Below, in pieces: positions 536 to 15,179 of a DNA stretch of 18,210 bases (positions within the stretch are counted from its first letter, which is position 1; the number at the start of each line of letters is the position of its first letter). The notes beneath the pieces were generated by a model. The model saw only the letters and a list, made by a program, of their open reading frames with translations, made no database searches and was not told the DNA's origin. Location of the stretch: assembly GCA_009781575.1 (NCBI GenBank), contig WQXW01000007.1:1-18210 (forward strand), written 5' to 3'. The stretch comes from Solirubrobacterales bacterium. Its GTDB lineage: Bacteria > Actinomycetota > Thermoleophilia > Solirubrobacterales > Solirubrobacteraceae. Made by a program: the position numbers and the translations under genes.

Positions 536-646
536 GGTCGAGCAGCGGCCGTTACGTGTTTTGTTTTGAGGATTCGTTCCGCGCGGAACGAATCCTCTTT
601 TCGAATCCCCCAACGGCGCCGGCGACAGGTGTGCTCAGAGGCCCGC
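536..646 (+). repeat. Interspersed structured repeat, copy 1
   Basis: This is the first of three copies of an intergenic repeat (others about 10862-10999 and 13565-13692). In order it has GGTCGAGCAGC, a CCGTT outer arm at 549-553, a G/T-rich tract (557-567), a perfect 30-bp palindrome (568-597), TTTT, a second CGAATCCCCC block, the AACGG outer arm (612-616) and a conserved GACAGGTGTG tail (624-633). The copies align without gaps from the T-rich tract to the tail. It fills most of the 247-bp gap between rpoZ and coaBC. The remaining 105 bp hold a small GCCACC/GGTGGC hairpin and the coaBC promoter. Repeat ends are approximate. Confidence 0.85.
568..601 (+). terminator. Intrinsic-terminator-like hairpin in repeat copy 1
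   Basis: GAGGATTCGTTCCGC (568-582) is followed directly by its exact reverse complement (583-597). As RNA it folds into a 13-bp stem with a four-base GCGC loop and is followed by four T (598-601). It lies downstream of rpoZ on the coding strand. The T-run is short, and the opposite strand has no T-run directly after the hairpin, so termination, if any, acts on the + strand. Confidence 0.6.
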
Positions 647-715
647 CACCGGCTCGGGTGGCAGCGCCCGGGAGGCGGGAGGCCGGCGCCGCTCGCGCAA
701 GGCGCGCACCGGGGC

Positions 716-744
716 TTGCCGTGGCGGCGTGTCGGCGGTAGAAG
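716..744 (+). promoter_or_regulatory. Probable leaderless promoter of coaBC
   Basis: TTGCCG (716-721) and TAGAAG (739-744) are separated by 17 bp, and each matches the principal-sigma consensus at 4 of 6 positions. The predicted transcription start, about 7 nt after the -10, falls on the ATG of coaBC at 751. No Shine-Dalgarno sequence precedes that ATG, which fits leaderless translation, a common mode in Actinomycetota. This is pattern-based inference. Confidence 0.45.
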
Positions 745-750
745 CCACTC

Positions 751-1992
751 ATGTCCAGGATCCTGCTCGGCGTGAGCGGCGGGGTGGCCGCCTACAAGGC
801 GCTCGAGTTCATCCGCCTGGCCACCGGCGCCGGCCACTTGGTGCGCGTGATCCTCACGCCGGCCGCCGAGCGGTTCGTGGGGCGCGCCTCCTTCGAGGCG
901 CTCAGCGGCGCGCCCGCGCTGATCTCCGAGTTCGAGCGCGACCCGCTGCGCGGCGCGTTTCCCGGGGAGCCGCCGCCCGCGCATACGCCGATCAGCCACC
1001 TCGAGCTCGTCGCGAAAGCGGAGCTCTTGCTCGTGGCGCCGGCCACCGCCAACACGCTGGCCAAGCTCGCCCACGGCCACGCCGACAACCTGCTGAGCAG
1101 CGCGGCGCTGGCCGCGCGCTGTCCGCTGCTCGTGGCGCCGGCGATGAACAACCGCATGTACGAGCACCCGGCCACGCGCGCCAACCTCGAGCTGCTGCGC
1201 GCGCGCGGCGTCGAGCTCGCCGAGCCCGGCGCGGGGCGGCTGGCGTCGGTGGGGGAGGAGGGCATCGGCCGCCTGGCCGAGCCCGCCGCGCTGCTCGAGC
1301 GCTGCGAGGCGCTGCTGGGCGCGGGCGCCCGCGAGTGGCGGGGGCTCCATGTGCTCGTCACCGCAGGGGGCACGCGCGAGCCGATCGACAGCGTGCGCTA
1401 CCTCGGCAACCGCTCCTCCGGGCGCATGGGCCTCGAGCTGGCGCGCGCGGCGCATCGGCGCGGCGCGCAGGTGGTGCTGGTGGCCGCCAACGTCTCCCTC
1501 GCCTCGCCCGACGGCGTGGCACGCCGCGACGTCACCACCACGGCCGAGCTGCAGCGCGTCTGCGAGGAGGAGTTCGAGCGCTGCGAGTTGCTGCTGATGA
1601 GCGCCGCGGTGGCCGACTACCGGCCCGCCGCGCCGGCCGCCGGCAAGCTCAAGAAGGCCGGTCGCGAGCGTGTCGAGCTCGAGCTGGAGGCCACCCCCGA
1701 CGTGCTGAGCGGACTCGCCGCCCGGCGCCGCCCGGGGCAGACGCTCGTCGGCTTCGCCGCCGAGCACGGGCCCGACGCGGTCGCGCTCGCCCGCGAGAAG
1801 CTCGCCCTGAAGGAGCTCGACGCGCTCGTGGTCAACGACATCTCACGATCCGACATCGGCTTCGACGCGCAGGACAACGAGGTGACGGTGCTCACCTCCG
1901 CACAGGAGCGCCACGTGCCGCGCGCCGCCAAGGCCGCGGTGGCCGAGGCGATCCTCGATGTGGTGGCGGCGCTGCGCGCCGAGGGCGCCTGA
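751..1992 (+). CDS. coaBC: Bifunctional phosphopantothenoylcysteine decarboxylase / phosphopantothenate-cysteine ligase
   Basis: CoaBC performs two successive steps of coenzyme A synthesis. CoaB joins 4'-phosphopantothenate to cysteine using CTP, and CoaC decarboxylates the product using FMN. The protein has 413 aa, normal for the fusion. CoaC half (about 1-190): FMN-binding GVSGGVAAYKAL near the start, active-site His83 in ISHLEL, APATANTLAKLA, and the PAMN motif at 130-133 (PAMNNRMYEHPAT). CoaB half (about 198-413): VTAGGTREPID, RYLGNRSSGRMG (215-226), AAVADYRP, the KLKK lysines near 299-302, and VNDISRSDIGF. The flap that normally carries the catalytic Cys (ACGD...GRM in E. coli) reads LASVGEEGIGRL, with Ser at the Cys position (residue 166). 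The ATG at 751 is the family start and coincides with a predicted transcription start. Confidence 0.95.
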   Translation: MSRILLGVSGGVAAYKALEFIRLATGAGHLVRVILTPAAERFVGRASFEALSGAPALISEFERDPLRGAFPGEPPPAHTPISHLELVAKAELLLVAPATANTLAKLAHGHADNLLSSAALAARCPLLVAPAMNNRMYEHPATRANLELLRARGVELAEPGAGRLASVGEEGIGRLAEPAALLERCEALLGAGAREWRGLHVLVTAGGTREPIDSVRYLGNRSSGRMGLELARAAHRRGAQVVLVAANVSLASPDGVARRDVTTTAELQRVCEEEFERCELLLMSAAVADYRPAAPAAGKLKKAGRERVELELEATPDVLSGLAARRRPGQTLVGFAAEHGPDAVALAREKLALKELDALVVNDISRSDIGFDAQDNEVTVLTSAQERHVPRAAKAAVAEAILDVVAALRAEGA

Positions 1993-2000
1993 GCGGCCGC

Positions 2001-2045
2001 GCACGGGCGCCCTCCGCACGAGCGCCCTCCGCACGAGCGCCCTCT
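2001..2045 (+). repeat. Three tandem 15-bp units
   Basis: The units are 2001-2015, 2016-2030 and 2031-2045, with consensus GCACGAGCGCCCTCC. One base differs in unit 1 (G for A) and one in unit 3 (final T). They fill most of the gap between the coaBC stop and the TPR gene and abut a -10-like TACAGT. They are non-coding unless the TPR gene starts far upstream. This could be slippage-generated sequence or a set of binding sites. Confidence 0.8.
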
Positions 2046-2050
2046 ACAGT
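2045..2050 (+). promoter_or_regulatory. Possible -10 element for the TPR gene
   Basis: TACAGT fits TAnnnT and lies 11 nt before the ATG at 2062, which would give a leader of only a few bases. No convincing -35 is seen; the expected region is the tandem 15-bp repeat. Weak evidence. Confidence 0.25.
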
Positions 2051-2061
2051 TGAGAGCCGGC

Positions 2062-2430
2062 ATGGAGAGCGTGTATGAGCTCTACCGCCGCGGCTGCGAT
2101 CTGCTGGGCCACGGCGACTATCAGGCGGCGATCGTGCCGCTCAGCCGCGCGCGCGATCTGGAGCCGGGCAAGACCTCGATCCGGGAGACGCTCGGGCGCG
2201 CGCTCTTTCACGCCCAGCGCTACGAGCACGCCGCCGCGGAGTTCCAGGCGGTCGCCTCGGCGGCGCCCACCAACGATTATGCGCTCTTCTGTCTCGGGCG
2301 CGCGTGGCAGCAGCTGGGCCGCCACCGCGAGGCGTGCCAGCCGCTGGCGCTGGCCTGCTCGCTGCGCCCCGAACGGGAGGACTATCGCGTGTATCGCGAT
2401 CGCGCGCGGCGCGCCGCGGGCCACCGCTGA
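2062..2430 (+). CDS. Small tetratricopeptide-repeat protein
   Basis: This 122-aa protein consists almost entirely of helical TPR-type repeats, so it probably binds another protein. I see three consecutive units: about residues 3-35 (YELYRRGCDLLGHGDYQAAI), 38-70 (ETLGRALFHAQRYEHAAAEF) and 73-105 (YALFCLGRAWQQLGRHREA). Each has the small-residue and aromatic spacing typical of TPRs. There is no signal peptide or membrane segment, so it is probably cytoplasmic. The ATG at 2062 is preferred; a TTG at 2050 would add four residues. No clear ribosome-binding site precedes it. It sits between coaBC and the rimP operon, outside any well-known operon. The partner cannot be told from sequence. Confidence 0.75.
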   Translation: MESVYELYRRGCDLLGHGDYQAAIVPLSRARDLEPGKTSIRETLGRALFHAQRYEHAAAEFQAVASAAPTNDYALFCLGRAWQQLGRHREACQPLALACSLRPEREDYRVYRDRARRAAGHR

Positions 2431-2468
2431 GCTCGCTTGCAGGCGCCCGCGCCGGCCCCGGCGTCTCG

Positions 2469-2497
2469 CTGAGCGGACCGGCGGGCGGTGCTATTCT
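2469..2497 (+). promoter_or_regulatory. Probable promoter of the rimP-nusA-infB operon
   Basis: An extended -10, TGC followed by TATTCT (2489-2497), is the best -10 match in this gap. A weak -35 (CTGAGC, 2469-2474) lies 17 bp upstream. Transcription would begin near 2504, giving an 84-nt leader before the rimP ATG that contains the hairpins and terminator described separately. The TG extension may compensate for the poor -35. Inference from pattern and position. Confidence 0.5.
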
Positions 2498-2507
2498 CGG
2501 GGCACAG

Positions 2508-2545
2508 CTTTCGTACCGGCGCCGGGCCGGATTTCGTACCGAAAG
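2508..2545 (+). promoter_or_regulatory. Leader with competing hairpins before rimP
   Basis: TTTCGTACCG occurs twice (2509-2518 and 2532-2541). CTTTCG at 2508-2513 can pair with CGAAAG at 2540-2545, enclosing a GC-rich segment, while the second copy can form its own five-base stem (2532-2536 with 2540-2544). These pairings reach the base of the terminator stem that starts at 2544. The arrangement resembles a transcription attenuator, but the shared overlap with the terminator is only two bases, so a switching mechanism is speculative. Confidence 0.35.
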
Positions 2546-2567
2546 TGGGCGCTCGCCCGCTTTTTTT
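2544..2567 (+). terminator. Intrinsic terminator in the rimP leader
   Basis: AGTGGGC (2544-2550), loop GCTC, and GCCCGCT (2555-2561) form a 7-bp stem with one T-G pair, and the T-run spans 2561-2567. This is a textbook intrinsic terminator. It ends 20 nt before the rimP ATG and only 6 nt before its Shine-Dalgarno sequence, after the predicted promoter. It would therefore either end transcription from the TPR gene or act as an attenuator on the operon's own transcripts. Confidence 0.75.
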
Positions 2568-2587
2568 GCGTCAGGAGGGAAAAATCG

Positions 2588-3066
2588 ATGACAGCGTTGC
2601 AGAGGTCGATCGAAGCGCGTCTCGCACAGGGCGAGCCCGAGGTCGAGGTGCTGCTGGCCGAGGTCGTGAACGGACCCGCCCACTCCACCCTGCGCGTGTT
2701 CATCGATCATCCCGACGGCGTCACCCTGGCGCTGTGCGAGCGGGTCTCGGCGCTGCTCGGCGAGGAGCGCGAGCGCTACGCGCTGGAGGTGTCCTCGCCG
2801 GGGAGCGAGCGCCCGCTGACCAAGCCCGCCCACTTCCGCCGCTTCGTGGGGCGCCGCGCGCGCGTGCGCACGCGCGCGCCCCGGCGGCTCACCGGCTCCG
2901 GGGCCGGCTCCGGGGCCGCGGCCGGCGGAGCGCCGTGTGAGCGGCGCAGCTTCACCGGCGAGCTGGTGGGTGCCACGGAGAGTGAGATCACGCTCGCCGC
3001 CGACGGGGGCGTGATCGCGATCCCCTACTCGGAGATCCGCCGCTCGAACCTGCTCGGTGATCGCTG

Positions 3067-3067
<1 letters not shown>
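2588..3067 (+). CDS. rimP: Ribosome maturation factor RimP
   Basis: RimP binds the pre-30S subunit and aids its maturation, notably S12 assembly. The protein has 159 aa. The family core is present: LRVFIDHPDGVTLALCERVSALL, then YALEVSSPGSERPLTKPAHF (the EVSSPG.eRPL signature), then the C-terminal SH3-like part with FTGELVGATESEITLA and IPYSEIRRSNL. Between the two parts lies a Gly/Ala-rich insertion (about residues 100-115), and the segment before the YALEVSSPG signature is shorter than in many homologues. The ATG at 2588 has a strong AGGAGGG at 2573-2579 with 8-nt spacing. Its TGA (3065-3067) shares a base with the nusA ATG. First gene of the long operon. Confidence 0.93.
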
Positions 3068-4497
<1,430 letters not shown>

Positions 4498-4505
4498 CGC
4501 CCCAC

Positions 4506-4792
4506 GTGCCCAGGCGCCGCTGCGCCGGCTGCGGGCGCGCGGCCCCCAAGGCCGAGCTGGTGCGCCTCGCCCTCACGCGCGAGCGCGGCCGCCCGCCCCG
4601 GCTCGTGCTCGACCGCGCCGGGGTGATGCCCGGCAGGGGCGCCTACCTCTGCGCGGCGCCCGGCCCGGCGCACGGCGCGCAGGAGCCCGCGCCACGCTGC
4701 GCGGAGCTCGCCGCGCGGCGCGGCGCGATCGCGCGCACGCTGCGCGCGCCGGTCCAATTCGACCCCGCAGACCTCGTAGAATCGGAGCGCTG

Positions 4793-4793
<1 letters not shown>
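4506..4793 (+). CDS. ylxR: YlxR family RNA-binding protein
   Basis: YlxR is a small protein regularly encoded between nusA and infB. The family has been reported to bind nucleic acid or RNase P and to influence gene expression, but its role is not settled. The 95-aa product shows the hallmarks: RRRCAGCGRAAPKAELVRLA (family RtCvgC...pK.eLiR), the PGRGAYLC motif, and a C-terminal ARRGAIARTLR helix. An extra Ala/Pro/Gly-rich stretch (APGPAHGAQEPAP) follows the GRGAYLC motif. The GTG start at 4506 lies 8 nt after the nusA stop. The TGA at 4791-4793 shares one base with the infB ATG. Confidence 0.9.
4777..4782 (+). promoter_or_regulatory. Possible internal -10 element before infB
   Basis: TAGAAT is a strong match to the -10 consensus (5 of 6) and an unusually AT-rich hexamer for this region. 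It lies 10 nt before the infB ATG, inside the end of ylxR. No -35 is visible at the expected distance. It could give an infB transcript with a very short leader. Confidence 0.3.
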
Positions 4794-7261
<2,468 letters not shown>

Positions 7262-7301
7262 GCGTGCGCGCGATTGATCCGGCGCCTGGCTGGAGGGTAG
7301 G

Positions 7302-7721
7302 ATGGGCTCCAATCGCTTACGCCGCGTCGATGAGGCGATCCGCCAGGTGCTGGGGGACGCGGTCGGCGAGCTCCAGGATCCGAGGGTGGGATTTGTGACC
7401 GTCACCGACGTCAGGACGAGCCCCGACCTCCGGCACGCGCGGGTGTATGTGAGCGTGCTGGGCGAGGAGGCCACGCGCGCCGCCACGCTCGCGGGCCTGG
7501 AGAACGCGCACGGCCACCTGCAGAGCCGCCTGGCCACGGAGCTGCGCCTCAAGCACACGCCAACGCTAGTGTTCCGCTACGACGAGACCACCGACCGCGC
7601 GATGCGGATCGAGGAGTTGATCGAGCAGGCGCAGAGCGGCGCGCGCGCCGGCGACGGTGAGGAGCACCCCGGCTCCGGCGAGCCGCCGGGGGGGCGCGCG
7701 CAAAAGGGGCAGATCGATTGA
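7302..7721 (+). CDS. rbfA: 30S ribosome-binding factor RbfA
   Basis: RbfA is a KH-type protein that binds the pre-30S subunit and supports 16S rRNA 5'-end maturation. At 139 aa it has the usual size. Visible signatures are NRLRRVDEAIRQVLGDAVGELQDPRVGFVTVTDV (family R...i...ia.il..ei.DPr.g.vtVt.v), HARVYVSVLG, and LRLKHTPTLVFRYDE with a following helix. The last 30 or so residues are Gly/Glu/Ala-rich and not conserved. The ATG at 7302 has GGAGGG at 7292-7297. Its TGA overlaps the TTG start of the next gene by 4 nt, consistent with translational coupling. Confidence 0.94.
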   Translation: MGSNRLRRVDEAIRQVLGDAVGELQDPRVGFVTVTDVRTSPDLRHARVYVSVLGEEATRAATLAGLENAHGHLQSRLATELRLKHTPTLVFRYDETTDRAMRIEELIEQAQSGARAGDGEEHPGSGEPPGGRAQKGQID

Positions 7722-8758
7722 GCGTGGCGATTGGAGAGGACACGGCCGCCGGCCGCCGGCAGGCGCTGGAGCGCATCGAGGGCGACTCGCGCTTCGTGCT
7801 GGTCACCCACGAAAACCCCGACGGCGACGCGCTGGGCTCGATCGTGGCGATGCACGGGCTGCTGCGCGCGCTGGGCAAGGACGCGGAGATGCTGCTCTCG
7901 AGCGACGATCTGCCGCTGCCCTACGAATACCGCTTCTTCGTGCTGGACGATCTGATCGAGGAGCCGCCCGAGGATGTGGCGCAGCGCACCGCGATCTTCC
8001 TGGACTGCGGCAACGTGGACCGCGTGCCGGCGCGCCTGCTCCAGGAGAGCGCGCACCTGCTCAACATCGATCACCACCACGACAACACGCGCTTTGGCAC
8101 GGTCAACCACGTGGTGGCCAGCGCCTCCTGCACCGCCGAGATCGTGTGGGACCTGATGAAGGCGCTCGAGATCACGCCCACCCCGCAGATCATCGAGGCG
8201 CTGTATGTGGGGCTGATCACCGACACCGGCCGCTTCATGTACGAGAACACCGGCCCCGGCGCGCACGAGATGGCAGCCGAGCTGATCGAGCTGGGCGTGG
8301 ACGTGCAGGGCATCTACCGCCGCCTCTTCGAGGACATGCCGCCGGCGAAGCTGACGCTGCTGGGCCTGGCGCTCGAGCGCATGCGCCGCTTCGACGAGGG
8401 CGAGCTCACGCTGGCCGCGCTCAGCGCGGAGGACTTCCGCAGCGTGGGCGCCGAGGAGAGCTACTCCGAGGGCGTGATCGACCACCTGCGCGCCGTGCAG
8501 GGCACCAAGGTGGCGGCGCTCGTGCGCGAGCTGCTCTCCGGCTCCGAGCGCGGCCGCCACAAGGTGTCGCTGCGCGCGACCGACGGCGACGTGGACGTGT
8601 CGGCGATCGCGCGCGCCCAGGGCGGCGGCGGCCATCGGCGCGCGGCCGGCTTCTCCACATCGCTGTCCAGCGAGGAGCTGATCGCCTTCCTGCGCCTGGA
8701 GATCGCCGCCCAGCTGCACCCATCGCGTGAGGGCCCGCGCGCCCCCGCGCCGGCCTGA
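7718..8758 (+). CDS. nrnA: DHH/DHHA1 phosphoesterase, NrnA-type (nanoRNase / pAp phosphatase)
   Basis: Members of this family degrade 2-5 nt RNAs and often dephosphorylate 3'-phosphoadenosine 5'-phosphate or cyclic dinucleotide products. The protein has 346 aa. DHH domain motifs are all present: HENPDGDALGS with His31, Asp35 and Asp37; FLDCGN with Asp96; the DHH triad at 118-120 (IDHHH); and GLITDTGRF with Asp169. The C-terminal DHHA1 domain contains the substrate-binding GGGGHRRAAGF near residues 302-312. The TTG at 7718 overlaps the rbfA stop by 4 nt; a GTG at 7724 is an alternative. Position between rbfA and truB is conserved in many Gram-positives. The exact substrate cannot be read from sequence. 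Confidence 0.9.
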   Translation: MSVAIGEDTAAGRRQALERIEGDSRFVLVTHENPDGDALGSIVAMHGLLRALGKDAEMLLSSDDLPLPYEYRFFVLDDLIEEPPEDVAQRTAIFLDCGNVDRVPARLLQESAHLLNIDHHHDNTRFGTVNHVVASASCTAEIVWDLMKALEITPTPQIIEALYVGLITDTGRFMYENTGPGAHEMAAELIELGVDVQGIYRRLFEDMPPAKLTLLGLALERMRRFDEGELTLAALSAEDFRSVGAEESYSEGVIDHLRAVQGTKVAALVRELLSGSERGRHKVSLRATDGDVDVSAIARAQGGGGHRRAAGFSTSLSSEELIAFLRLEIAAQLHPSREGPRAPAPA

Positions 8759-8788
8759 GGCCCGGGGTCCGAGGCGCGAGGCCCGGGG
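8757..8788 (+). repeat. Short direct repeat after the DHH gene
   Basis: GAGGCCCGGGG occurs at 8757-8767 and again at 8778-8788, starting within the stop codon of the DHH gene. It lies in the 69-bp gap before truB and shows no T-run or strong hairpin. It is probably a local duplication. Confidence 0.5.
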
Positions 8789-8827
8789 CGACGGCAGGCG
8801 CGGCCACGGCCGGCGTAGGCGGCGAGC

Positions 8828-9571
8828 ATGAGAGCGCGGCGCACGGGCATCGACGGGGTGCTGGCGGTCGACAAGCCGGCCGGCTGGAGCTCCCACGACG
8901 TGGTCGCGGCGGTGCGCCGGGCGCTGGGGGGGCCGCGCACCGGTCACGCCGGCACGCTGGACCCCTTCGCCACCGGCCTGTTGCTCGTGCTGGTGGGTGC
9001 GGCCACCCGCTGCCAGCGCACCCTGATGCAGCTCCCCAAGCGCTACGAGGTGGTCGCGCGGCTGGGCGCGCGCTCGAGCACCGGCGATCCCGAGGGCGAG
9101 ATCGAGCTCACCGGGCGCGTGCCGCCACAGCAGCCGCGGCTGCCCACGGGCGAGATCCACCAGCGCCCGCCGATCTACTCGGCGGTGAGGGTGGGCGGTG
9201 AGCGCGCCTACCGGCGCGCGAGGAGGGGTGAGCGCTTCGAGATGCCGGAGCGGGTGGTGACGGTGCATCGCTTCGAGCAGCGCTGGCGCGAGGGGGCCAC
9301 GCAGCCCGGGGAGCTGGCCCGCGCGGGCTTCACGATCGAGTGCTCCGCGGGCACCTACGTGCGCGCGCTGATTGCCGAGCTGCACGACGCCTACTGCGAG
9401 GAGCTGCGGCGCACCGCGATCGGGCCGTTTGAGGTGGCCGGCGCGATCGCGCCGCCCCGCCGCGGTGAGCGCTGGCCGGAGCCGGCGCTCACGGCGGCGC
9501 TCATGAGCGTCGAGGAGGCGCGCGCGAGGGCCGGGGTCGGGGCCGGTCCCGGCTACGCTTTCCGCTCATGA
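8828..9571 (+). CDS. truB: tRNA pseudouridine(55) synthase TruB
   Basis: TruB isomerises uridine 55 in the T-loop of tRNAs. The protein has 247 aa, shorter than E. coli TruB (about 314), mainly through a reduced C-terminal region, as is common in Gram-positives. The conserved segments are GVLAVDKPAGWSSHDVV; the catalytic motif GHAGTLDPFATGLL with Asp45; KRYEVVARLGARSSTGDPEGE; the HQRPPIYSAVRVGGERAYRRAR block; and CSAGTYVRALIAEL. The ATG at 8828 places the first motif at residue 7. The Shine-Dalgarno is weak. The TGA overlaps the ribF ATG by 4 nt (ATGA), a typical truB-ribF arrangement. Confidence 0.96.
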   Translation: MRARRTGIDGVLAVDKPAGWSSHDVVAAVRRALGGPRTGHAGTLDPFATGLLLVLVGAATRCQRTLMQLPKRYEVVARLGARSSTGDPEGEIELTGRVPPQQPRLPTGEIHQRPPIYSAVRVGGERAYRRARRGERFEMPERVVTVHRFEQRWREGATQPGELARAGFTIECSAGTYVRALIAELHDAYCEELRRTAIGPFEVAGAIAPPRRGERWPEPALTAALMSVEEARARAGVGAGPGYAFRS

Positions 9572-10560
9572 GGATCACGCGCCTGCCCGATGTGCGGCGC
9601 CGGGCGCGCAGGGTCGCGGTTGGCACCTTCGACGGCGTGCACCTGGGACACCGCCGCGTGATCGGCGGCGCCGACAGCGTGCTCACCTTCGAGCCCCACC
9701 CGGTGTCGGTGGTCAAGCCGGAGCACGCGCCCCGCCTGCTCACCGACGCCGAGCAGAAGGCCGAGCAGATCGGGGCGCTCGGTGTGGAGGAGATGATCGT
9801 GATCCCGTTCGACACCGCCTTCGCCGCGCGCAGCGCGCGCGAGTTCATCGACGATGTGCTGATCGGCGCGCTCGGCGCGCTCGAGGTGTCGGTCGGCGAG
9901 AACTTCCGCTTCGGCAATCGCGCCAAGGGCGACCCCCAGCTGCTCGCGCAGGAGCCCCGCTTCTCCACCGTGGTCGCGCCGCTGCTGGAAATAGATGGCG
10001 AGATCGTCTCCTCCAGCCACATCCGCGGGCTGGTGGTGGCGGGCGAGGTGGAGTACGCCACACGCTTCCTCGGCCGCCCCTTCCAGCTGCGCGGCGAGGT
10101 GGTGCATGGCGATGAGCGCGGCCGCACTCTCGGCTTCCCCACCGCCAACCTGATCCCCTCCGAGTCCCACGTGACCCCCGGTCACGGCGTGTACGCCTGC
10201 CTCGCCGACGGCCGCCCCGCAGCGGTGAGCATCGGCGTGCGACCCACCTTCGACACCGGCCGCGGCGAGCTGATCGAGGCCCACATCCTGGACTTCGACG
10301 ACGACCTCTACGGCCACCGCCTCAGCCTCGATTTCCTGCAGCGCGTGCGCGGCGAGCGGCGCTTCGACAGCGCGCAGGCCCTGGTGGCGCAGATGGCGCG
10401 CGACGTGGCGCTCACGCGCGAGATCGCAGGCGCGGGGCGCGGCGCCGAGCGGGGTGCGGAGGGGCGCGCCGAGCGGGGTGCGGAGGGGCGCGCCGAGCGC
10501 GGCGCACAGAGTGCCGCTGGGGGTGGCGAGGCGTCTGCTACGGTGTCGGACCGCCCATGA
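9568..10560 (+). CDS. ribF: Bifunctional riboflavin kinase / FAD synthetase
   Basis: RibF converts riboflavin to FMN and then to FAD. The protein has 330 aa. The N-terminal nucleotidyltransferase half has [10 protein letters not shown] and, later, [14 protein letters not shown] and SSSHIRGLV. The C-terminal flavokinase half has [32 protein letters not shown] and [12 protein letters not shown], all canonical. Two oddities are visible. Between [14 protein letters not shown] and the TFEPHP motif there are only about seven residues, whereas E. coli RibF has roughly 13 more, so a helix appears to be missing. The last 45 or so residues are a non-conserved Ala/Gly/Glu/Arg tail with an AERGAEGR tandem repeat. 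ATG 9568 overlaps the truB stop; the TGA overlaps the rpsO ATG. Confidence 0.95.
10444..10506 (+). repeat. 24-bp tandem repeat in the 3' end of ribF
   Basis: Two identical 24-bp units (10444-10467 and 10468-10491) plus a partial, diverged third (10492-10506) encode AERGAEGR repeated in the C-terminal tail of RibF. The period is a multiple of three, so copy-number change would keep the frame open. The tail lies after the conserved kinase domain and is probably tolerated slippage. Confidence 0.85.
10536..10544 (+). promoter_or_regulatory. Possible extended -10 element for rpsO
   Basis: TGC followed by TACGGT fits an extended -10 and lies 12 nt before the rpsO ATG, inside the end of ribF. No -35 match is seen 17 bp upstream. 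If used it would give an rpsO mRNA with a leader of about 5 nt. Weak, pattern-based. Confidence 0.3.
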
Positions 10561-10826
10561 CCCCGACCAGCGAGCGCAAGCGCGAGATCACGGCGAAGTT
10601 CGGCTCCAGCGAGCGCGACACCGGCAACACCAAGGTGCAGATCGCGCTGCTCACCGAGCGCATCAACCACCTGACCCAGCACCTGCGCGAGCAGCGCAAG
10701 GACCACCACTCGCGCCGCGGCCTGCTCATGTTGGTCGGGCAGCGCCGGCGCTTTTTGACCTACCTGCAGCGCACCGACCTCGAGGGCTACCGCGCGCTGA
10801 TCAAGGAGCTCGGCCTGCGCAAGTGA
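10557..10826 (+). CDS. rpsO: 30S ribosomal protein S15
   Basis: S15 is a primary 16S rRNA-binding protein of the 30S platform and takes part in an intersubunit bridge. The 89-aa length is exactly that of the family. The fold is recognisable throughout: [49 protein letters not shown] (the signature, including the rRNA-contacting [10 protein letters not shown] segment), and [30 protein letters not shown]. The ATG overlaps the ribF TGA (ATGA), so it is probably translationally coupled. Repeat copy 2, carrying a terminator-like hairpin, follows 36 nt later, before pnp. The rpsO-pnp order is conserved in most bacteria. Confidence 0.98.
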
Positions 10827-10861
10827 GCGCACGCGCCCGCGGCTCGAGCTCCGCGCGGGCG

Positions 10862-10999
10862 CCCGCTCCGGCGGCGCGGCCGCCGGTCGAGCAGCAGCAG
10901 CGGCCGTTGGGTTTTTTGTTTTGAGGATTGGTTCCGCGCGGAACGAATCCTTTTTTTGAATCCCCCGACGGCTCCTCAGACAGGTGTGTTCGAAGCCGC
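10862..10999 (+). repeat. Interspersed structured repeat, copy 2
   Basis: This second copy is in the same orientation, in the 309-bp gap between rpsO and pnp. Similarity to copy 3 begins already at CCCGCTCCGGCGG (10862-10874) and runs to GTGTGTTCGAAGCCGC. Outer arms CCGTTGGG (10904-10911) and CCCGACGG (10964-10971) form 8 pairs including one T-G. The core palindrome (10923-10952) differs from the consensus at two positions, giving one G-G mismatch and one G-T wobble. A seven-T run spans 10951-10957. The rest of the gap (11000-11135) holds only the pnp leader hairpin and no convincing promoter; TAAGCT at 11057 is the best -10 candidate. Confidence 0.85.
10923..10957 (+). terminator. Intrinsic-terminator-like hairpin in repeat copy 2
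   Basis: A stem formed by 10923-10937 and 10938-10952 (one mismatch, one wobble) is followed by T at 10951-10957, the longest T-run of the three copies. It sits where transcription of the rimP-rpsO operon would be expected to end or be reduced before pnp. Confidence 0.65.
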
Positions 11000-11097
11000 G
11001 GGGCCCACGTCACGCTGGAGGAGAGCGCCGCTGCCCTGCACGCTCGGGGCGTCCGCTAAGCTGGCTCGCATTCGGAACGGAATATGAACTGAAGAGA

Positions 11098-11119
11098 CTC
11101 CGCCGACCGAAGGGCGGAG
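11098..11119 (+). promoter_or_regulatory. Hairpin in the pnp leader next to the ribosome-binding site
   Basis: CTCCGCC (11098-11104) pairs perfectly with GGCGGAG (11113-11119) around an 8-nt loop. The 3' arm ends 2 nt before the GGGAAGG Shine-Dalgarno region (11121-11127), which is 8 nt from the pnp ATG. In E. coli a pnp leader hairpin is the site of RNase III-dependent autoregulation. A similar role here is an inference from position only. Confidence 0.5.
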
Positions 11120-11135
11120 AGGGAAGGTAGAAAAT

Positions 11136-13454
11136 ATGAGCAGTGACGCCGTTACGCGGGTCTCCGTAGAGATTGCCGGTGATGAGATTTCCTTTGAGAC
11201 CGGCAGGATGGCCCGCCAGGCCTCCGGCGCGGTGGTCGTCCGTCAGGGCGACACGATGGTGCTGGCCACCGCCACCGCGGGGGCACAGCGAGATGTCGAC
11301 TTCCTGCCGCTCACGGTGGACGTCGAGGAGCGCATGTACTCGGCCGGCAAGATCCCCGGCTCCTTCTTCAAGCGCGAGGGGCGCTCCGGCGAGAAGGCCA
11401 CGCTGACCGCGCGCATGATCGACCGGCCGCTGCGGCCGCTCTTCTCCAAGGGGTGGAGCTTCGACACGCAGCTGGTCGCGATCCCGATCTCCGTCGATCA
11501 CGAGCATCCCTACGACATCCTGGCCATGAACGGCGCCTCCGCGGCGCTCATGATCTCCAACGTGCCGTTCGCCGGGCCGGTGGGCGCGGTGCGCATCGGC
11601 AAGGTCGACGGCAACTTCGTGGTCAACCCCGACGAGCACGACATCAGCTCCGAGGCGGGCGCGCCGCCGAGCTCCGAGCTGGACCTGGTGGTGGCCGGCA
11701 CCGAGGAGGCGATCCTGATGGTGGAGGCCGGCGCCAACGAGATCTCCGAGGCGGAGATCCTCGACGCGCTGGACATCGCCCACTCGGAGATCCGCAAGCT
11801 GTGCGCGCTGCAGCGCGAGCTGGCCGAGCGCGTGGGCAAGCCCAAGACGCCGGTGGAGGCGCCGGTGGTCGATCAGGCGATTCTCCAGGAGGTGCGCGCC
11901 TCGCACGGCGCGGCGCTCGATGAGGCCACCCAGGTGGAGGACAAGCTCGCGCGCCAGGACGCGACCCACGCCGTCGAGGAGGCGGTGCTCGCCCAGCACG
12001 CGCCGCCCGCCGCGGAGGGCGCGGGCGATGAGGAGCAGGAGCGCGCGCGGGCGCGCCGCGGCGCGGCGCAGCTGGCCTTCGACTCGCTGGAGAAGGCGAT
12101 CATCCGCGAGCGCATCGCGGTGCACAAGAAGCGCCCCGACGGGCGCGGCGAGAGCGAGATCCGCCCGATCTCGATCGAGGTGGGCGTCACTCCCCGCACG
12201 CACGGCTCGGCGCTCTTCACGCGCGGCCAGACCCAGGCGCTCAGCGAGGTCGCGTTCGGCACGCTCAAGGAGGAGATGCGCCTCGACACGCTGGGGCTGC
12301 AGGGCAAGAAGTACTACTTCCACCACTACAACTTCCCGCCGTTCTCGGTGGGCGAGGCCGGGCGCCTCGGGCCCAAGCGGCGCGACATCGGCCACGGCGC
12401 GCTCGCCGAGCGCGCGCTGGTGGCGATGGTGCCCTCGATCGAGGAGTTCCCCTACACGATCCGCGTGGTGTCCGACATCCTCGAGTCCAACGGCTCCTCC
12501 TCGATGGCCTCGGTGTGCGGCTCCTCGCTGGCGCTGATGGACGCGGGCGTGCCGATCCGCCGCCCGGTCGCCGGCATCGCGATGGGGCTGATCAAGGAGG
12601 GCGACGACTACACAGTGCTCACCGACATCGCGGGCGTCGAGGACCACCTGGGCGACATGGACTTCAAGGTCGCCGGCACCGAGCGCGGCATCACCGCGCT
12701 GCAGATGGACATCAAGATCGGCGGCGTCACCTTCGAGATCCTGCGCGACGCGCTGGGCCAGGCGCGGGAGGCGCGCACCTCCATCCTCGCCAAGATGGCC
12801 GAGGTGATCGGCTCGCCGCGCGGCGAGCTCAGCCAGTATGCGCCGCGCATCCAGACGATCCAGATCGATCCCAGCCAGATCGGGCTGTTGATCGGCAAGG
12901 GCGGTGAAACGATCCGCGGCCTCTCCGAGGAGTTCGAATCGGAGATCGACGTCAACGACGACGGACAGGTGCTGATCTACTCCGCCAACGGCGCGCTCGC
13001 CGAGGAGCTGCTCGAGCGGATCCGCATGATGATGAAGGAGGTCGAGGTCGGCGACGAATACGCCGGCAAGGTGGTCAAGACCACCGCGTTCGGCGCGTTC
13101 ATTGAGCTGACCAAGGGCACCGACGGCCTGTTGCACATCTCCAACGTCTCGCCCGGCGCGCGCGTGGACACCGTCGAGGACGTGCTCAACCGCGGCGACG
13201 AGGTCGCGGTGCGCGTGGTCGAGGTCGATCGCGAGCGCGGCCGCATCGGCCTGCGCCTGGCCGACGACCCCGAGGTCGCGGGCAAGTCGGTCGAGGAGCT
13301 CGCCGGCGTCGGGAGCGGCGGCGGCGGTGGTGGTGGCGGGCGCCCGCGCGAGGGCTCCGGCCGCAACGGCCGCGGCGAGGGCCGTCGCAGCGATCGCGGC
13401 TCCGGCCGCCCGCGCCACGGCGCGGGCCGCGACCGCGACCGCGACCGCTATTGA
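11136..13454 (+). CDS. pnp: Polyribonucleotide nucleotidyltransferase (PNPase)
   Basis: PNPase is a trimeric 3'-5' phosphorolytic exoribonuclease central to mRNA decay. The protein has 772 aa, a little longer than the usual 700-740. It has a first RNase PH domain (about 10-145, with SFFKREGR and ARMIDRPLRPLF); a helical linker containing an Ala/Glu/Arg-rich insertion (about 285-310); a second, catalytic RNase PH domain with SNGSSSMAS (451-459) and Asp503 and Asp509 in EDHLGDMDFKVAG, equivalent to the E. coli catalytic residues; a KH domain with IGKGGE near 586; and an S1 domain (about 642-710, GKVVKTTAFGAFIEL). A Gly- and Arg-rich tail (about 725-772) with a Gly8 run and Arg-Asp repeats follows. 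ATG 11136 has a GGGAAGG ribosome-binding site. Confidence 0.97.
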   Translation: MSSDAVTRVSVEIAGDEISFETGRMARQASGAVVVRQGDTMVLATATAGAQRDVDFLPLTVDVEERMYSAGKIPGSFFKREGRSGEKATLTARMIDRPLRPLFSKGWSFDTQLVAIPISVDHEHPYDILAMNGASAALMISNVPFAGPVGAVRIGKVDGNFVVNPDEHDISSEAGAPPSSELDLVVAGTEEAILMVEAGANEISEAEILDALDIAHSEIRKLCALQRELAERVGKPKTPVEAPVVDQAILQEVRASHGAALDEATQVEDKLARQDATHAVEEAVLAQHAPPAAEGAGDEEQERARARRGAAQLAFDSLEKAIIRERIAVHKKRPDGRGESEIRPISIEVGVTPRTHGSALFTRGQTQALSEVAFGTLKEEMRLDTLGLQGKKYYFHHYNFPPFSVGEAGRLGPKRRDIGHGALAERALVAMVPSIEEFPYTIRVVSDILESNGSSSMASVCGSSLALMDAGVPIRRPVAGIAMGLIKEGDDYTVLTDIAGVEDHLGDMDFKVAGTERGITALQMDIKIGGVTFEILRDALGQAREARTSILAKMAEVIGSPRGELSQYAPRIQTIQIDPSQIGLLIGKGGETIRGLSEEFESEIDVNDDGQVLIYSANGALAEELLERIRMMMKEVEVGDEYAGKVVKTTAFGAFIELTKGTDGLLHISNVSPGARVDTVEDVLNRGDEVAVRVVEVDRERGRIGLRLADDPEVAGKSVEELAGVGSGGGGGGGGRPREGSGRNGRGEGRRSDRGSGRPRHGAGRDRDRDRY

Positions 13455-13487
13455 GGCCGACCCGGACGGCCGGCCGTGCTGATGATC

Positions 13488-13541
13488 GCCGGTGCAAGCG
13501 GAACGTTCACGCATCTATCGAGAAGTGGAGCTTGCACCGGC
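13488..13541 (+). repeat. Perfect 12-bp inverted repeat after pnp
   Basis: GCCGGTGCAAGC (13488-13499) and its exact reverse complement GCTTGCACCGGC (13530-13541) flank a 30-nt loop. The loop itself contains the palindrome GAACGTTC (13501-13508). It begins 34 nt after the pnp stop. As RNA it would make a stable 3' stem-loop; there is no T-run, so it is not a classical terminator. It could protect the 3' end or bind a protein. Confidence 0.75.
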
Positions 13542-13564
13542 CCAAAGGGCAAAATGCGCCGACA

Positions 13565-13692
13565 CCCGCTCCGGCGGTGCCGGTCGTGAGCAGCGTCCGT
13601 TGCGTTTTTTGTTTTGGGGATTCGTTCCGCGCGGAACGAATCCTCTTTTTGAATCCCCCAACGGCGCCTCCGACAGGTGTGTTCGAGGCCGC
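13565..13692 (+). repeat. Interspersed structured repeat, copy 3
   Basis: This third copy, same orientation, runs from CCCGCTCCGGCGG (13565-13577) to GTGTGTTCGAGGCCGC. Outer arms are CCGTTG (13597-13602) and CAACGG (13659-13664); the core palindrome is 13616-13645. GGGGATTC at 13616-13623 can pair either with GAATCCTC inside the palindrome (one wobble) or, perfectly, with GAATCCCC at 13651-13658. Two exclusive folds are therefore possible. From the T-rich tract to the tail it aligns with copies 1 and 2 without gaps. Confidence 0.85.
13616..13650 (+). terminator. Intrinsic-terminator-like hairpin in repeat copy 3
   Basis: A stem from 13616-13630 and 13631-13645 (one G-T wobble, otherwise perfect) is followed by five T (13646-13650). 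It lies downstream of pnp on the coding strand, as expected for the end of the pnp transcript. Confidence 0.65.
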
Positions 13693-13727
13693 ATTGCGTC
13701 CCCTCCCGCGGGCCCAGCGGGCACGGC

Positions 13728-13780
13728 CTTTGATCGGTTTGATCCACTCGACCGGTGGCGGCTGATCAAATCGATCAAAG
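13728..13780 (+). promoter_or_regulatory. 17-bp inverted repeat with four TTTGATC half-sites upstream of the M16 gene
   Basis: Positions 13728-13744 and 13764-13780 are reverse complements at 16 of 17 positions (the exception is a G-T pair), around a 19-nt loop. Each arm holds two copies of TTTGATC or GATCAAA spaced 9 bp apart (13729, 13738; 13764, 13773). This AT-richer block ends 31 nt before the ATG at 13812. It may be an operator for a dimeric or tetrameric regulator, or a 5' UTR hairpin. No T-run follows. Confidence 0.65.
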
Positions 13781-13811
13781 CGGCAAGCGAAACGGGAACC
13801 CACACCGCCCC

Positions 13812-15179
13812 ATGACCCACCGGATCACCACCCTCCCCTCCGGCCTGCGCGTGGTGAGCGAGCGCCTCGAGCACGCCCGCTCGGTCGCGCTCGGCTTCTT
13901 CGTGGGCACCGGCTCGGCGCTGGAGGCGCGCGAGCGGGGCGGGATCTCCCACCTGCTGGAGCACATGCTCTTCCGCGGCACCGAGCGCTACCGCTCGCGC
14001 GAGGTCGACGAGCTCTTCGACAGCATGGGCGCCGAGCTGGACGCCGGCACCGACCGGGAGACCACCTCGTTGCAGACGCGCGTGCTGGAGCGCCACCTGG
14101 AGCGCGCCCTGGACGTGATGGCACAGATGATCTGGCATCCGCTGCTGGAGGATCTGGAGGCCGAGCGCGAGGTGGTGCTGGAGGAGATCGCCTCCTATGA
14201 GGACGATCCCCAGGAGCGCGTCTTCGACGCGCTGGGCGAGGCGATCTTCGGCGATCACCCGCTGGGGCGCCCCGTGATCGGCAACGCCACCTCGGTGGGC
14301 GCGATCGACGCGGATCACCTGCACGCCCACCACGCCCAGCACTACGTGCCGGCCAACGTGGTGGTGGCCGCCGCGGGCGCGGTCGATCACGACGCGCTCA
14401 CCGCGATGGTCGCCCGCACGTGTGCCGGAGAGGGCGGCGCGGTGCCCCTGAGCCCGCCGCCCCCGCGCACGACCCCCCGGGTGCTGTTCACGCCCAAGGA
14501 CACCGAGCAGTACCACGTTTGCATAGGCGCTCCCGGCATCGCACACGACGACGAGCGGCGTTTTGAGCTGTGCCTGCTCGACAACGTGTTCGGCGCGATG
14601 GCCTCCTCGCGCCTCTTCCAGGAGGTGCGCGAGCGGCGCGGTCTGGCCTACTCGGTGTACTCCTTCGAAGCGCTCTATTCGCGCACCGGCGAGGTGGGCA
14701 TCTACCTCGGCACCCGCCCCGAGAACCTGCGCGAGGCGCTCGAGGTGGTGGCGGCCGAGCTGCAGCGGCTGCCCTCCGACCCCGCCGGCGCCGCTGAGCT
14801 CGAGCGCTCGCGCGAGGGCACCAAGTGCGCGTTGGCGCTCGCGCTGGGCTCGCCCACCGCGCGCATGGGAGAGCTCGGGCACGCGGTGGCGGCCGCTCTG
14901 CCGATTCTCACGATCGAGCAGCAGTGCGCGCGGCTCGACGCCGTCTCGGTGGAGGGCCTGCGCGAGCTGGCGCACGCGCTGTATGACCCGGCGGGGCTGT
15001 CGGTGGCGGCGATCGGGCCCGGCGAGGCGCGCCTGCGCGAGGCGCTCGCGCCCCTGCACGAGCTCGGGCTGCCCGAGCCCCAGCCGATCGGGATCGCGCC
15101 CGTCGCCCCCCCGGCGGCGGAGATCGCGCCCACCGCGCCGCCGGTGCGCGTCGCGGGCGGCGGCCGCGCGCGGCCGTGA
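13812..15179 (+). CDS. M16 family zinc metallopeptidase (processing-peptidase-like)
   Basis: This belongs to the M16B family, related to mitochondrial processing peptidase and to Bacillus YmxG/MlpA. The protein has 455 aa. The inverted zinc motif HLLEH is at 47-51 in GGISHLLEHMLFRGTERY. The third ligand is in EREVVLEEIASYEDDPQ (Glu124 or Glu125). The C-terminal half contains RERRGLAYSVYSFEALYSRTGEVGIYLG, the conserved R/Y substrate-clamp region. So it has an active-type N-terminal half plus the usual second half in one chain. The Pro/Ala-rich last 30 residues are not conserved. I chose ATG 13812 because MTHRITTLPSGLRVV is the family start; a GTG at 13755 would translate part of the upstream inverted repeat. 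No signal peptide. The TGA overlaps the dapB GTG by 4 nt. Substrate unknown. Confidence 0.92.
   Translation: MTHRITTLPSGLRVVSERLEHARSVALGFFVGTGSALEARERGGISHLLEHMLFRGTERYRSREVDELFDSMGAELDAGTDRETTSLQTRVLERHLERALDVMAQMIWHPLLEDLEAEREVVLEEIASYEDDPQERVFDALGEAIFGDHPLGRPVIGNATSVGAIDADHLHAHHAQHYVPANVVVAAAGAVDHDALTAMVARTCAGEGGAVPLSPPPPRTTPRVLFTPKDTEQYHVCIGAPGIAHDDERRFELCLLDNVFGAMASSRLFQEVRERRGLAYSVYSFEALYSRTGEVGIYLGTRPENLREALEVVAAELQRLPSDPAGAAELERSREGTKCALALALGSPTARMGELGHAVAAALPILTIEQQCARLDAVSVEGLRELAHALYDPAGLSVAAIGPGEARLREALAPLHELGLPEPQPIGIAPVAPPAAEIAPTAPPVRVAGGGRARP

Follow-up and report, generated by a model that had tools for sequence, protein, structure and literature searches.

A bacterial lineage of the Solirubrobacteraceae most probably carries a non-coding, non-autonomous small interspersed repeat at several hundred intergenic sites, a reading to which we give a probability of about 0.7 and under which the copies would have been moved by a transposase acting in trans. 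The mobilising enzyme would most plausibly recognise the folded palindrome of the repeat, and the dispersed copies may exchange sequence by recombination. The repeat is placed between genes irrespective of strand, is restricted to one lineage and, at one site, accompanies an insertion-like gap.

Three copies in the window

We analysed an 18,210-nt stretch of DNA (the window), which is the entire contig C7 of a 2,254,892-base genome in 401 contigs that is 73% complete. Its pnp protein is closest to those of Solirubrobacterales/Solirubrobacteraceae genomes, with at most 84% identity in the best segment, very near records having possibly been excluded, and the host thus probably belongs here. The three copies of the original prediction are present at 541-644, 10896-10999 and 13589-13692, all on the plus strand, and a repeat alignment of the window joins them over 104 nt without gaps, as had been claimed, the other two having 85% and 91% identity with the copy at 10896. 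A core pattern search places their palindromic cores at 571-594, 10926-10949 and 13619-13642.

Copy 1, with an alignable unit of 102-104 nt, lies between a called gene (275-503) and coaBC (DFP; 751-1992), and its palindrome GAGGATTCGTTCCGCGCGGAACGAATCCTC (568-597) is a perfect 30 bp followed by T4. Copy 2 lies between rpsO (10557-10826) and pnp (11136-13454); it is extended on the left (10862-10895) by a GC-rich module, CGCCCGCTCC...GGTCGAGC, that is common to other copies, and its imperfect palindrome (10923-10952) has a G.G mismatch at 10930, the majority state of the family. Copy 3, located between pnp and an M16 peptidase gene (13812-15179), has a palindrome (13616-13645) directly followed by T5, a left extension (13565-13588) and a right extension (13693-13791), the latter containing TTTGATCGGTTTGATCC (13729-13745) and GGCTGATCAAATCGATCAAAGC (13760-13781), two motifs also found beside some other copies; these features too are all on the plus strand. 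The segment between the pnp stop codon and copy 3 also contains an inverted repeat, CCGGTGCAAGC/GCTTGCACCGG (13489-13540).

Copy number and distribution among genomes

A 24-nt core pattern with up to 3 mismatches has 334 matches in the 2,254,892 bases, about one per 6.7 kb, each match being counted on both strands because the core is palindromic; the reversed pattern has none in the same genome at the same threshold. This is a repeat family far beyond chance, and the possibility that only the three copies of the window exist does not hold. A 26-nt version of the core likewise gave 334 matches in the host genome at up to 3 mismatches and none in the 398 further genomes searched within the class, of which 17 belong to the same genus; at up to 2 mismatches it gave 331 in the host and none in 295 other genomes drawn from the phylum, a set that overlaps the class set. 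Using blastn (E 0.001), a 98-nt consensus matched none of 60 relatives, including 23 of the same genus. A 154-nt consensus searched against 145 other family members, with 5 candidates scored per genome, found pieces of 21-42 nt from the GC-rich flanks or tail in 7 genomes, none of these matches, among the same scored candidates, lying over the palindrome. The core pattern was absent from viral contigs, and plasmids gave no blastn match. Samples of three sister species (136,987, 89,017 and 140,000 bases) contained no non-simple 16-mer seen at least 5 times, and two comparable samples of the host genome contained 159 and 182.

Non-coding, short, multi-copy and not found in the related genomes searched, the repeat shares these traits with MITEs. 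A narrow literature search found no published report of such a repeat in this bacterial group. The load is about 2% of the assembled genome (334 copies of about 139 nt), yet a search of 23 genomes of the same genus did not find the repeat. Such a lineage-specific load makes it possible to ask how a short non-autonomous sequence can multiply and be maintained in a bacterium where no partner enzyme is recognisable.

Anatomy and sequence variation

To describe the family we sampled 556,496 bases, made up of the window and 40 further stretches, in which a 102-column profile (consensus AGCAGCGGCCGTTGCGTGTTTTGTTTTGAGGATTGGTTCCGCGCGGAACGAATCCTCTTTTTGAATCCCCCAACGGCGCCTCCGACAGGTGTGTTCGAGGCC) located 86 copies. 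The core is an imperfect palindrome of 26-30 bp between a T-rich tract and a AATCCCCCAACG box. The commonest left end lies 36-38 nt before the end of the AGCAGCG box (21 of 85 copies) and the commonest right end 26 nt from GACAGG (17 of 85), which gives a modal unit of about 139 nt; some copies are longer, 7 of the 85 extending far on both sides. A companion sequence of 19-20 nt, AGATTCCCGCAAAATGCGC, stands beside a core in 29 of its 33 matches (up to 4 mismatches), 17 times on the right and 12 on the left, always in the orientation of the core. Close pairs of copies are 156, 162, 171 and 250 nt apart and all share the same orientation. At about 12311-12373 in L047 (minus strand 1014-1076) the tail of a copy, GAATCCCCCAACGGCGCCTGCGACAGCTGTGTTC, is tandemly duplicated, and in a copy in L040 (174-275, minus) the right arm mirrors the left almost fully up to CCGTTGCG, as if either arm had been copied onto its partner.

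The 80 copies compared all differ from one another, with a pairwise identity that averages 0.84 (0.66-0.96); despite this diversity, 43 columns are nearly invariant. For 80 of the 86 copies, the T tract and the palindrome (four positions excluded) each have a mean heterozygosity of 0.019, compared with 0.033 for AATCCCCCAACG and 0.13-0.61 for the remaining regions. That 43 columns are nearly invariant and others highly variable is not accounted for by a simple neutral decay of inserted copies. The constraint on the core could come either from the replication of intact copies or from host selection.

Among the variable columns, scored in the 81 of 86 copies with a score of at least 100, 21 of 378 pairs had a z above 4, and 18 of these 21 are adjacent or fall within one six-base block, the others being (31,58), (-23,-2) and (-30,-26). 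When two-state sites are paired, 59 of the 66 pairs contain all four combinations of states, and r2 reaches 0.23 at most. The variable sites are in near linkage equilibrium, freely shuffled among copies. Subfamilies would be expected if a few masters had been copied in a tree-like manner; the observed pattern suggests that copies exchange sequence, or else that change recurs under a strong constraint on the core.

Gene context and orientation

Genes in the sample were called with a home-made codon-usage script, which missed a small ylxR-like frame at 4506-4793. None of the 86 copies has its centre inside a called gene, and just two reach into a gene end, over 8 and 22 nt. As predicted, all three window copies lie between co-directional genes and are read with them; this arrangement does not extend to the genome, as 27 copies are sense and 25 antisense in co-directional gaps (binomial p = 0.89), and the proposed orientation with transcription is not supported. 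The even orientation of the 86-copy sample indicates that the three-out-of-three pattern of the window is due to chance. The remaining copies are in divergent (15) or convergent (12) gaps, or at contig edges without context (7 of 86).

Of the called intergenic gaps, 174 measure 110 nt or more, and copies occupy 75 of them, namely 48 of 114 co-directional, 15 of 40 divergent and 12 of 20 convergent ones. The median distance is 63 nt to facing 3' ends (76 cases) and 134 nt to facing 5' ends (82 cases), and in 69% of 51 co-directional cases the copy lies in the half of the gap adjoining the upstream gene. This proximity to 3' ends fits promoter avoidance as well as any role at the 3' end. The orientation of copies agrees with local GC skew in just 46 of 86, and we consequently rejected a replication-strand marker; an integron attC array was rejected as well, because the copies are interspersed at about one per 6.7 kb.

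RNA structure and termination

When folded as sense RNA, the three window copies yield the inner hairpin as well as the outer pairing that had been described (z of -2.2, -2.9 and -2.8), and the antisense strands of these copies fold equally well (z of -3.0, -2.7 and -3.7). A test of 20 pairs in 80 of the 86 copies revealed no stem covariation, 1427 of 1600 cells being paired versus 1425.2 ± 3.8 after shuffling, with 185 of 500 shuffles reaching 1427. The original prediction singled out 10930 as the only position that breaks a pair, but the G.G mismatch turns out to be the rule, with 62 G.G, 11 C-G, 10 G-C and 3 C.C among the 86 copies; these frequencies match independence, as do the 19 paired states in 80 copies (shuffled mean 19.9). 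Selection on RNA structure, which had been deduced from the stem differences, is thus not borne out, and a family of regulatory RNAs is unsupported, given the even orientation and the lack of stem covariation. A structured RNA family was likewise rejected, as stem covariation was absent and Rfam 15 at its gathering thresholds had no match in the window. In 80 of the 86 copies, a putative tail hairpin scored 600 versus 590 ± 4 after shuffling, a value attained by 9 of 500 shuffles. Its three double-change cells derive from one truncated copy (L031, 12248) and one copy shifted by one base (L040, 5278), and we therefore did not count it as covariation. There is a caution in this: three copies suggested strand bias and structure-preserving changes, and 86 copies do not bear these out.

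A terminator scan recognised the whole of copy 3 but no more than 14 inner nt of copy 2, and did not list copy 1; over the whole window it found 9 sites versus 3.5 ± 2.0 in shuffled sequence. TTTT follows the stem in 68 of 86 copies. In 17 of the 86, which we call A-type, CTCAAAACAAA replaces CTCTTTTTGAA, so that the palindrome is longer and the T run is lost. Only 39 of the 79 placed copies lie sense after a gene, which is not the distribution expected of a terminator family. In 76 of these 79 copies, all of which have two flanking genes, the A-type makes up 8 of 38 copies able to terminate the upstream gene versus 8 of 38 others, and the variable stem position is paired in 9 of 38 potential terminators versus 9 of 38 others. 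We accordingly rejected a strand-biased terminator, orientation being even and the A-type, devoid of a T run, being equally frequent in both groups. The only result leaning towards a terminator role is that copies lying sense after a gene have slightly fewer changes in the 43 conserved columns (0.34 versus 0.66 per copy, p = 0.045). It is plausible that copies which happen to lie sense after a gene act as Rho-independent terminators, the hairpin followed by T4-T7 probably having this predicted effect incidentally.

Insertion evidence and search for a mobilising enzyme

The pnp-M16 gap is 357 nt long in the host, versus 25-41 nt, free of the repeat, in five relative loci (L051, L054, L057, L060 and L079). 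These five are the loci, among 24 with both pnp and M16, in which the pnp alignment reaches the stop codon; for the 19 remaining loci the calculation gives a shorter gap (L084, L087) or one that takes in an unaligned pnp tail or more divergent sequence. At this one site, then, the gap is enlarged by about 320 nt in an insertion-like manner. The rpsO-pnp gap measures 309 nt in the host and 147 nt in L079, with a common segment before pnp that is recognisable by eye. In many relatives (L051-L087) the rpsO-pnp gap contains a frame that by eye resembles a peroxiredoxin; it is absent from the window (10827-11135), L054 and L079, and looks shortened in L056.

The joined flanks of 83 copies gave no clean, base-accurate empty site. 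Target-site duplication was not detected in 74 copies (longest word shared by the flanks 3.82 versus 3.90 ± 0.11 shuffled) or in the 28 copies with modal ends (4.14 versus 4.06 ± 0.17), a test that is weakened by the imprecise ends. As for terminal inverted repeats, visual comparison shows matches at just a few GC-rich bases of the termini. The 73%-complete genome gave no match to the Y1/RAYT family PF01797 (E 0.001), nor to PF02371 (IS110-type), PF07282 or PF01610 (ISL3); PF01797 did match in 9 of 61 genomes searched, strongly in the same-genus genome G007. A coding partner between close copies was considered for an uncalled stretch of 2.7 kb in L044 and rejected, the stretch containing a long frame that by eye resembles a secreted peptidase, and two further gaps showed nothing mobile by eye.

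Relation to known repeats and alternative explanations

On our best reading the repeat would resemble ERIC, RUP and SPRITE in kind. SPRITE is described as a dispersed terminator-like pneumococcal repeat in which a hairpin precedes a U-rich tract, and it and its fellow small-repeat families can insert into one another (PMC3049150, PMC10969869). Our repeat is similarly dispersed and short, with a hairpin and a T-rich run, and one of its copies likewise has another repeat nested in it; compared by description only, it differs in lying in called intergenic gaps irrespective of strand and in having a nearly invariant core. The hosts of the two belong to different phyla. ERIC is given as 127 bp with up to 711 copies and Correia as 204 bp (PMC3049150, PMC10969869), and the repeat shares with them a size class of about 130-200 nt, an intergenic location, palindromy and, in some hosts, hundreds of copies, but is without a demonstrable target-site duplication or clean terminal inverted repeats. 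MITEs are characterised by terminal repeats and target duplications (PMC3733652, PMC8266576, PMC10969869, PMC3049150), and REPs as palindromes of 20-50 nt with a GTAG or CGTC tag (PMC3733652, PMC8266576); REP, BIME and REPIN sequences are reported in species-specific versions that replicate as populations (PMC3116915, PMC8049555). The likeness to the latter lies in high-copy, intergenic, imperfect palindromes, and the difference in the absence of a GTAG/CGTC tag, a length 3-7 times greater and the lack of a detected RAYT in the 73%-complete genome. The column tallies and alignment of 81 copies contain no GTAG tag; a CGTC-like string does occur left of CCGTT, at least 22 nt from the palindrome, and reads CGTC in about 32 and CGGC in about 42 of the 81 copies. 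The conserved core spans about 102 columns and the unit about 139 nt, beyond the REP range. The earlier suggestion of a terminator-bearing mobile repeat or REP-like element is supported as regards a high-copy, intergenic, palindromic family (334 matches) with a terminator-like core. As the tested sequence marks of REPs are lacking and there is no target duplication, we file the repeat under the broad heading of small interspersed intergenic repeats, neither a REP nor a proven MITE. One might tentatively speculate, though we are doubtful, that it represents a class outside both tagged REPs and TIR/TSD MITEs, namely a recombining population of several hundred copies in one actinobacterial lineage, the folded core of which, mostly with the G.G mismatch, would be held nearly invariant by an enzyme acting on single-stranded hairpins.

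We find it unlikely that the copies form a REP/REPIN-type population whose RAYT gene either falls within the 27% of the genome absent from the assembly or no longer exists. The majority mismatch in the stem would suit an imperfect palindrome such as REP hairpins can have (PMC8266576), and so would the hundreds of intergenic copies, some in tandem pairs, and the strong Y1-transposase matches in G007; the aligned consensus, however, has no GTAG/CGTC tag adjoining the palindrome, the unit is about 139 nt and not 20-50 nt, and PF01797 has no match in the 73%-complete genome. Also unlikely is a host DNA site, in which the palindrome and its flanks would bind a chromosome-organising or regulatory protein and the host would keep the core invariant after its spread. 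Such a site would account for a core heterozygosity of 0.019 next to columns of up to 0.2-0.6, for the rarity of core changes whatever the context (0.34 and 0.66 per copy in the 43 columns) and for strand-indifferent placement. Chromosome-organising sites tend to be common within a genus, and this argues against it, as the repeat is absent from all 23 same-genus genomes searched; moreover, its orientation is unrelated to GC skew (46 of 86), and selection for continued replication of the repeat would also preserve the core. It is unlikely, finally, that the copies have been selected as intrinsic terminators or as cis-acting RNA hairpins at 3' ends. The stable hairpin followed by T4-T7 in the window copies, the TTTT after the stem in 68 of 86, the shorter median distance to 3' ends (63 versus 134 nt) and the slightly fewer core changes of sense-after-gene copies all point that way, but half of the placed copies (all except 39 of 79) are not sense after a gene, 15 are in divergent gaps, the stems do not covary, and neither the A-type (8 of 38 in each group) nor the pairing of the variable stem position (9 of 38 in each) distinguishes potential terminators from the others.

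Other mobile DNA associated with the repeat

The same genome contains a second repeat family with 24-nt terminal inverted repeats, GGGTGCGGCTCTCCTGGAGGGACG, seen in L050 (6447-6841, about 395 bp) and L049 (12959-13132). Among the 40 of 49 candidates that were scored, 8 match it over 81-93 nt and others match just the end repeat. The L050 element is flanked by 9-nt direct repeats and is inserted in a copy of the main repeat. Another copy of the main repeat is split, its halves being located near the start of L041 (minus strand, 14407) and near the end of L135 (10176, minus); the halves terminate in IS-like ends that are complementary to each other, AGTGGGGTATCCATC, with 8 nt possibly duplicated, and the inserted element has been lost to the assembly gap. 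The nested second repeat and the IS-like end that splits a copy indicate that the main repeat is itself a target of other mobile DNA.
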